Part shown: positions 4,875-10,165 of the stretch, piece after piece
Position numbering within the stretch: the first letter of the stretch is position 1
How the letters are laid out: the number at the start of each line of letters is the position of its first letter
NCBI GenBank assembly: GCA_007116535.1
Contig: SKIG01000187.1
Coordinates: 1 to 18,887, forward strand
Direction: 5' to 3'
Length of the DNA stretch: 18,887 bases
Source of the DNA: Psychroflexus sp.
Lineage (GTDB): Bacteria > Bacteroidota > Bacteroidia > Flavobacteriales > Flavobacteriaceae
The notes under the pieces: model-generated
Databases searched by the model: none
Told to the model about the DNA's origin: nothing
The model's input: only the letters and a program-made list of their open reading frames with translations
Program-made: the position numbers and the translations under genes

Positions 4875-5354
4875 TTACTCTTCACTAGAAGCTTCTTTTG
4901 TTTCAGTGGTTGGAGCAACATTCTCGGTGGCTGTTTTTTTACCAGCTCTACGAGTAGATTTTTTCTTGGTTTGTTTAGTATTAGGATTGTAAAGCTCATT
5001 AAAATCAACTAATTCAACCATTGCCATTTGGGCGTTATCCCCCAAACGATTACCAAGTTTAATAATACGCAAGTAACCTCCAGGTCTGTCAGCAACTTTC
5101 GGTGCTACATCTCTAAACAAGTCAGCTACCGCATACTTACTTCTTAACTTTGAAAATACAAGACGTCTGTTGTGCGTAGTATCTTCTTTAGATTTTGTAA
5201 TAAGAGGCTCAACAAACTGTCTTAAAGCTTTCGCTTTAGCAACTGTAGTATTGATTCTTTTATGTTCTATAAGAGAGCAAGCCATATTAGCTAACATCGC
5301 TTTTCTATGCGCTGTTTTTCTCCCTAAATGATTTATTTTTTTTCCGTGTCTCAT
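4875..5354 (-). CDS. rplQ: 50S ribosomal protein L17
   Basis: Large-subunit protein bL17, 159 aa. The conserved core is residues about 1-120, with [13 protein letters not shown] at the start and the [26 protein letters not shown] motif near 90-110. The rest is a C-terminal tail, first Lys/Arg/Thr rich and then acidic (ending EASSEE). That tail makes it longer than the roughly 127 aa of E. coli L17, which is common in this phylum. It follows rpoA by 21 bases when the full-length rpoA frame is used and is the last gene before the cluster terminator. Confidence 0.96.
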
Positions 5355-5375: not shown

Positions 5376-5504
5376 CTAGTCTTTATCTAACTTATATTTT
5401 GACAAATCCATACCAAAGTCAAGACCTTTGTTAGCAACTAGCTCTTCTAACTCAGTAAGTGACTTTTTACCGAAGTTTCTAAACTTCATCAAGTCATTTT
5501 TGTT
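5376..5504 (-). pseudogene. rpoA: In-frame 3' remainder of rpoA beyond a premature TAA
   Basis: These 42 codons plus TAG continue the rpoA frame directly after the TAA at 5505-5507. They encode the second half of the alpha C-terminal domain, including the hallmark [14 protein letters not shown] segment and the end KYKLDKD typical of Bacteroidota alpha. There is no further stop, no frameshift and no sign of drift. Joined to the upstream part it gives 330 codons, the normal family length. As written it would not be translated, except by readthrough or by re-initiation at the ATG at 5487-5489, which would yield a 37-residue fragment. Confidence 0.85.
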
Positions 5505-6368
5505 TTAAGTAACTAGGTCACCTAAAGTATCTACTTCAGCAGCTTTTAAACAATTTAATGCTCTAACTGATAGATCTAAATCTACTAATTTAGTTTTTAG
5601 CAATTGTCTCATGTGCAATGATTCTTCATCATAAGTATCAGCTTGAGACATTTCTTCAGTTTCAAGAGTTATTCTTTCATCAGAAAATAACATGAAATGA
5701 TGAATAAGTGTTTTAGCAGCTTCTGTTAAAGCATCTTTAGGATGAATTGATCCGTCAGATTTAATTTCAAAAACTAATTTTTCGTAATCTGTTTTTTGCT
5801 CAACACGGAAGTTTTCGATACTATACTTAACATTCTTGATAGGTGTAAAGATAGAATCTGTAAATATTGTTCCGATTGGAGCTTTTTCAGTTTTATTTTC
5901 TTCAGCAGTAACATACCCTCTACCTTTCTCAATGGTAATCTCCATATTGAAAGCAACGTCAGAGGACATATTACAAATCACTAAATCAGGGTTAAGAATT
6001 TCAAATCCATTCATGAATTTTTGAAAATCTCCTGCTTTCAAAACTTCTTGACCTGAAACAGAAATATTTACTGCTTCATTATCAAGTTCATCAACTTGCT
6101 TTTTGAAACGAACCTGTTTTAGGTTAAGTATGATTTCAGTAACATCTTCTACTACTCCAGGAATAGTTGAAAATTCGTGATCTACTCCTTCAATTCTAAC
6201 GGAAGTTATAGCAAAACCTTCAAGCGCTGATAACAATACTCTGCGCAAGGCGTTACCTACTGTTAAACCATAACCAGGTTCAAGTGGTCTAAATTCGAAA
6301 ACGCCCTCGAAATCGGTAGATTCTACCATAATTACTTTATCGGGCTTCTGAAAATTAAATAATGCCAT
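5505..6368 (-). CDS. rpoA: RNA polymerase alpha subunit, truncated in the C-terminal domain
   Basis: Alpha is the scaffold for RNA polymerase assembly, and its C-terminal domain binds UP elements and activators. The N-terminal assembly and dimerisation domain is complete in residues about 1-235, with the signature [20 protein letters not shown] at 33-52. The linker includes an acidic stretch. The C-terminal domain starts near residue 250 and contains [23 protein letters not shown], where the Arg and Asn of RALNC match the DNA-contacting Arg265 and Asn268 of E. coli. It then stops at codon 288 with TAA, where relatives have Tyr or Phe. The second helix-hairpin-helix half with GKKSL follows in frame but after the stop. 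As written the product is 287 aa instead of about 330. Assembly should be possible, but domain folding and UP-element binding would be lost. A base-call error is a real alternative, because the gene is essential and the downstream codons are intact. It lies between rpsD and rplQ as expected. Confidence 0.93.
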
Positions 6369-6389: not shown

Positions 6390-6995
6390 TTATTTAGAGT
6401 ATAATTCGACGATGTACTGTTCGTTGATGTTTTCAGGAATTTGAGTTCTTGTAGGAACTGCAAAGTAAGTACCTTCTTTTTTATCAGCATTCCAAGTCAT
6501 CCATTCGTAAACAGATTTGTTAGCTGATAAAGAATCATTGATAGCAGAAAGAGATTTTGATTTCTCTCTTACAGCAACAACATCGTTAGGTTTAAGTTGG
6601 TAAGAAGGTATATTTACAATCTCTCCGTTCACAGTAATATGCTTGTGAGAAACTAACTGTCTAGCAGCTCTTCTAGATGGAGCTATTCCAAGTCTGAAAA
6701 CAACGTTGTCTAATCTTGATTCACAAAGTTGAAGTAAAACTTCACCTGTAATTCCTGTTGAACGTGTTGCTTTTTCGAACATGTTTCTAAACTGACGCTC
6801 TAAGATACCATAAGTATACTTAGCTTTTTGTTTTTCTATCAGCTGTACAGCGTATTCAGATTTTTTTCCTCTACGTCTGTTGTTTCCATGTTGTCCTGGA
6901 GGATAATTTCTTTTTTCAAAAGATTTATCAGCTCCGAAAATAGCCTCTCCGAATTTTCTAGCTATTTTAGTTTTGGGACCAGTGTATCTTGCCAT
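6390..6995 (-). CDS. rpsD: 30S ribosomal protein S4
   Basis: Primary 16S rRNA binder uS4, 201 aa. It nucleates 30S body assembly and forms part of the mRNA entry site. The N-terminal segment has [10 protein letters not shown] near residues 28-37. The S4 RNA-binding domain runs from about 90 to 155, with [12 protein letters not shown] and the [17 protein letters not shown] turn. There is no cysteine cluster, so this is the zinc-free form. In many bacteria S4 represses its own operon by binding leader mRNA. The 54-base foldable spacer just upstream of this gene is a candidate site. Confidence 0.97.
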
Positions 6996-9966: not shown

Positions 9967-9980
9967 TATCTAATTTGGTA

Positions 9981-10160
9981 TTAAAGTTCTTTAACAGAAA
10001 CTAAATGTTTAACTTTATTCACCATACCTAAGATTGCAGGTGAAGCTTCGTGTTCTACAGTTTGACCAATTTTCTTCAAACCAAGTGCTTCTAAAGTAAG
10101 CTTTTGCTTAGCCGGCTTTTTGATTGCACTTTTTACTTTTGTTACTTGTATTGTTGCCAT
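9981..10160 (-). CDS. rpmD: 50S ribosomal protein L30
   Basis: uL30, 59 aa, translated from the ATG at 10158-10160 to the TAA at 9981-9983. It starts MATIQVTKVKSAI. It then shows the short family core with LEALGLKKIGQTVEH near 23-37, and ends with ILGMVNKVKHLVSV and a short tail. Length is typical of bacterial L30. It fits tightly between rpsE (five bases) and rplO, where L30 belongs. A GGA seven to nine bases before the ATG is a weak Shine-Dalgarno-like match. Confidence 0.95.
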   Translation of the reverse strand: MATIQVTKVKSAIKKPAKQKLTLEALGLKKIGQTVEHEASPAILGMVNKVKHLVSVKEL

Positions 10161-10165
10161 TGATC

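Follow-up and report, generated by a model that had tools for sequence, protein, structure and literature searches.

An internal TAA codon in rpoA of a Psychroflexus species raises the question of whether this bacterium makes a shortened RNA polymerase alpha subunit or whether a base in the assembled sequence is wrong. The gene is part of the window analysed here, that is, the whole 18,887-nucleotide stretch of contig SKIG01000187.1 (assembly GCA_007116535.1), where it sits within a ribosomal-protein gene cluster. It forms a frame of 330 codons with one in-frame stop on the minus strand (6368..5379), with rpsD as the next gene upstream (6390..6995, minus) and rplQ as the next gene downstream (4875..5354, minus), both without internal stops. 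The TAA is codon 288 (5507..5505, minus). The 42 codons past it (5379..5504, minus) are free of stops, encode the second half of the alpha C-terminal domain with its usual end and run into a normal TAG at 5378..5376 (minus). Membership of the RpoA family is clear, as residues 1–287 score 396.9 bits against the NCBIfam equivalog NF003516 (cut-off 353), and the match to the C-terminal domain model PF03118 (5436-5627) extends across the TAA. A 287-residue product would retain Arg269 and Asn272 but would be without the GKKSL hairpin. In all these respects the letters bear out the initial annotation, which had described the stop, the intact frame behind it and a product keeping the Arg/Asn contacts without the GKKSL half. 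When compared with bacterial RpoA in general (TIGR02027, NF003516, with the PF03118 C-terminal domain), the frame likewise has 330 codons, the length of nearly all listed relatives, and the window record alone differs by a TAA at codon 288. Elsewhere in the window, an intact gene of 59 codons (9967-10165, minus), slightly below the length limit of the open reading frame list, is presumably rpmD, encoding ribosomal protein L30.

The residues that relatives carry at this site were taken from 119 RpoA homologues (the best 120 of 8,000 scored, minus the window's own). Position 288 is Phe in 59 of them, Tyr in 55, His in 4 and Ser in 1, and within the genus 11 genomes have Tyr and 4 have His (15 of the 26 other genus genomes with the locus). 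The earlier statement that relatives have Tyr or Phe here was thus nearly right, His and Ser being the exceptions. The codon directly before the stop, which the initial annotation did not mention, is also unusual. Codon 287 (5508..5510, minus) is ACT for Thr, a second private change adjoining the stop; the same 119 homologues have Ser (110), Ala (7) or Val (2) and never Thr at this position, and all 15 other genus genomes with the locus have Ser. In a wider set of loci, Thr is found at 287 in 9 of 110, the window's own counted. The rpoA region is matched at the DNA level in all 27 genus genomes, the best loci by RpoA match being those of P. salis, P. sediminis and P. aurantiacus.

Among the listed homologues, the nearest RpoA by length-matched identity is P0003, a full-length protein of 330 residues encoded on another contig of 97 kb; PDB entry 9n9p_A, a relative of P0003, has 330 residues too, the same length as the window frame. 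P0003 and the window RpoA differ at 3 of 330 residues, the stop counted, namely 184, 287 and 288. At residue 184 the window has the common Ile (114 of the 119 listed homologues), so that P0003 is the variant there, while at 287 and 288 it is the window that is odd. For independent changes, the chance that two of the three differences would be adjacent is about 0.012 (a post hoc P). Such adjacency is unlikely, and the pair at 287 and 288 looks more like a short run of bad bases than like separate changes. The proposal of a substitution rather than an indel fits the data, but the odd codons are two adjacent ones and not one.

The quality of the assembly provides a second line of evidence. The source assembly (G000) consists of 1,253,292 bases in 260 contigs, of which the window is contig 49, and is estimated to be 52% complete. 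A sample of 61 pieces including the window (384,402 bases, 31%, with 5,727 N) was compared with 955 open reading frames from 1.2 Mb of a relative of the same genus (G019), with an ATG start, at least 120 residues and an identity of at least 55% required. The comparison covered 31,047 aligned residues of 104 genes and revealed no frameshift pairs but 4 isolated in-frame stops, which fall in rpoA, a uvrA-like gene, a bamA-like gene and a KefC-like gene. Applied to a sister genome (G018; 222,311 bases, 9%), the same procedure detected 0 stops and 0 frameshifts across 14,432 residues of 52 genes. A second control took six genes around rpoA from 80 named-genome loci; its 469 gene copies, with 102,075 residues, contain no stop, although these are other genes than those of the G000 sample and mostly slower-evolving. 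Since the window had been picked for its stop, it was left out of the rate test. The remaining sample of 83 genes has 3 stops in its 26,315 residues, and the controls have none in 116,507 (Fisher P 0.006); against G018 alone, which is too small as a control, the difference is not significant (P 0.31).

Of the single substitutions in window codons, 5.1% yield a stop. On this basis, and if the three stops outside the window are all errors, the share of wrong bases would be about 0.07% (95% interval 0.015 to 0.22%), a rate at which one would expect about 0.6 stops among the 5,534 codons counted in the window. No stop interrupts five long G000 genes that lie beyond the sample (rpoB, rpoC, polC, gyrA and a second gyrA-model match, which we take to be parC-like), and errors would therefore be sparse in this assembly, which is still compatible with the estimated rate. 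Two other genes were not added: the matches to valS are weak (best 4.4e-8) and were left uncounted, and alaS lies inside a sampled contig (C1 of G000) and is no extra gene. Relatives are not entirely free of stops either: the split valS gene of G009 contains TGA and TAG codons, and one TGA lies within a weak match of G014. In G009, a single-contig assembly, valS (C1:426328-428903) and gyrA (C1:832850-835281) are both split between matches, as indel errors would cause. An initial stop count, made over 60 genes with a 60% identity floor and with GTG and TTG starts allowed, had given 6 stops, four of which were judged false. Two of these came from a G019 frame extended upstream of enolase and two from an antisense frame over rplV, and all four dropped out once an ATG start was required, the floor was set at 55% and more sequence was included. 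An apparent stop in carA of G019 is the natural end of carA.

Of the three other stop-bearing genes, the uvrA-like one, identified by a UvrA model match, has a TGA at a Trp codon (L125:7695, contig C3 of G000), the bamA-like gene, identified by a BamA model match, has a TAA at a Tyr codon (L127:7241, contig C5), and the KefC-like gene, with a weaker KefC model match, has a TAA (L145:445, contig C43). Intact near-identical copies are known for three of the four genes: besides P0003 for rpoA, these are P0123 for the bamA-like gene (3 of 558 residues differ, the stop counted) and P0243 for the uvrA-like gene (2 of 708, the stop counted). In the bamA piece, Thr398 and Gly433 each occur in none of 120 listed relatives, and across the 27 genus genomes a stop inside the BamA-model match is found in G000 only. 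BamA is essential in Gram-negative bacteria, and the TAA in this bamA-like gene would therefore be a stop in a gene that cannot be lost. A single PF03118 match was found in G000, and the missing half of the genome might hold another copy of either bamA or rpoA. The stops in the KefC-like and uvrA-like genes could also mark true pseudogenes.

Taken together, the comparisons make it highly likely that the TAA in rpoA is a consensus base error in a fragmentary draft of a Psychroflexus species, and the organism very probably encodes a normal alpha subunit of 330 residues. Thin or poor short-read data would have produced wrong bases and hence stops, and those in the rpoA, uvrA-like, bamA-like and KefC-like genes would all have this origin. 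The suggestion that the base is wrong, one of the two offered in the initial annotation, is supported by the scattered stops elsewhere in the assembly, by the lack of frameshifts in the compared part and by the intact near-identical copies of three of the four genes. Spurious internal stops have been documented in bacterial drafts, where low coverage inflates the numbers of both frameshifts and stops, and reads of low quality chiefly that of stops (Cooley and Wright 2024, PMC11017572). As in the spurious pseudogenes described there, the stops of G000 are isolated and in frame, interrupt otherwise intact genes, are absent from near-identical relatives and occur in a fragmentary assembly; stops without frameshifts fit the documented artefact. 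The present case is known from assembled sequence. A lone in-frame stop in a core gene of a fragmentary draft should be weighed against the stop rate of the same assembly first.

If the stop were instead a recent and real nonsense allele, as the initial annotation had also considered, the cells would make a 287-residue alpha subunit without the second half of its C-terminal domain, and the contacts of this subunit with UP elements, activators and NusA would be weakened. The frame past the stop is undecayed, as it would be in a very young allele, and with P0003 intact and near-identical the change would have to be at the strain level. Such a truncation is nevertheless improbable because Bacillus subtilis cannot do without the alpha C-terminal domain, although Bacteroidota may still differ. 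According to PMC4495994, a B. subtilis strain with the truncated form only could not grow, and attempts to introduce R261A and G292A failed. By positional alignment with a common offset of 8, these two residues correspond to Arg269 and Gly300 of the window, and Gly300 lies behind the TAA. The engineered B. subtilis deletion in that account resembles the window product, were the stop real, but there the whole folded domain is gone, whereas the window product would lose the second half. Point mutations in this domain, and no truncation, were found for E. coli in the part of PMC3533792 consulted. The three further stops in the compared part of G000, one of them in the bamA-like gene, and the adjacency of two of the three differences from P0003 also stand against a real allele. 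The stop recurs in none of the 97 other domain-bearing genomes among the matches listed and is absent from P0003, a comparison that an allele private to one strain would escape. The proposed fresh allele, with its altered response to UP elements and activators, gained no positive evidence and would need a cell that lives on half of the domain. A narrow search found no literature on the alpha C-terminal domain in Flavobacterium and no direct test in Bacteroidota. It is improbable that a natural Psychroflexus population lives with a real rpoA nonsense allele and an alpha subunit minus the second helix-hairpin-helix half, perhaps through a lesser dependence of Bacteroidota promoters on the domain or through low-level readthrough; if it does, it would offer a natural experiment on the need for this domain in Bacteroidota.

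Three further readings are less probable still. A symbiont-like lineage in decay, with real pseudogenes genome-wide and rpoA among them, could account for a stop in 4 of 104 compared genes and for the small assembly of 1.25 Mb, but the small size accompanies the 52% completeness, there are 0 frameshift pairs in 104 genes when decay yields indels too, and near-identical proteins are intact at all three sites compared (rpoA, bamA-like and uvrA-like). Moreover, the 30 window genes examined align with G018 and G019 over their full or nearly full length, and decay is very unlikely. That TAA is read as an amino acid, through a changed code or a suppressor tRNA, would agree with the frame running on past it, but of the 30 window genes examined 24 terminate in TAA and 6 in TAG, in-frame stops number 4 in 31,047 codons (three TAA and one TGA), and a partial sampling of 60 G000 pieces yielded 3 tRNAs, none of them a suppressor. 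As the codon still terminates and is rare in frame, recoding is hardly credible. Finally, a conserved and established truncation of alpha in the group, which close relatives sharing the same stop would indicate, is refuted within the genomes searched and has a negligible probability overall. PF03118 is present in 98 of 100 genomes, the window's own included, and among the matches listed a stop inside it is found in G000 only and in 0 of the other 97. In addition, 118 of the 119 other listed homologues have at least 330 residues, and the exception, P0114 (292 residues), ends by an apparent frameshift; no support for an established truncation was found.

Ribosomal-protein genes of the window carry private radical changes in rpsD (codon 178, V to F), rpsK (codon 115, P to A) and rpsM (codon 117, A to D), at columns in which the 76 to 80 orthologs show no other variation, and these are possibly further base errors. 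By the count of private changes over five genes, the window has 3 in 941 columns and ranks 7 of 83, tied, and is not an outlier. Two other RpoA entries have unusual lengths: P0114 breaks off at almost the same spot of the C-terminal domain as the window TAA, and P0001 (441 residues) contains an internally duplicated stretch. Both entries resemble artefacts of assembly.
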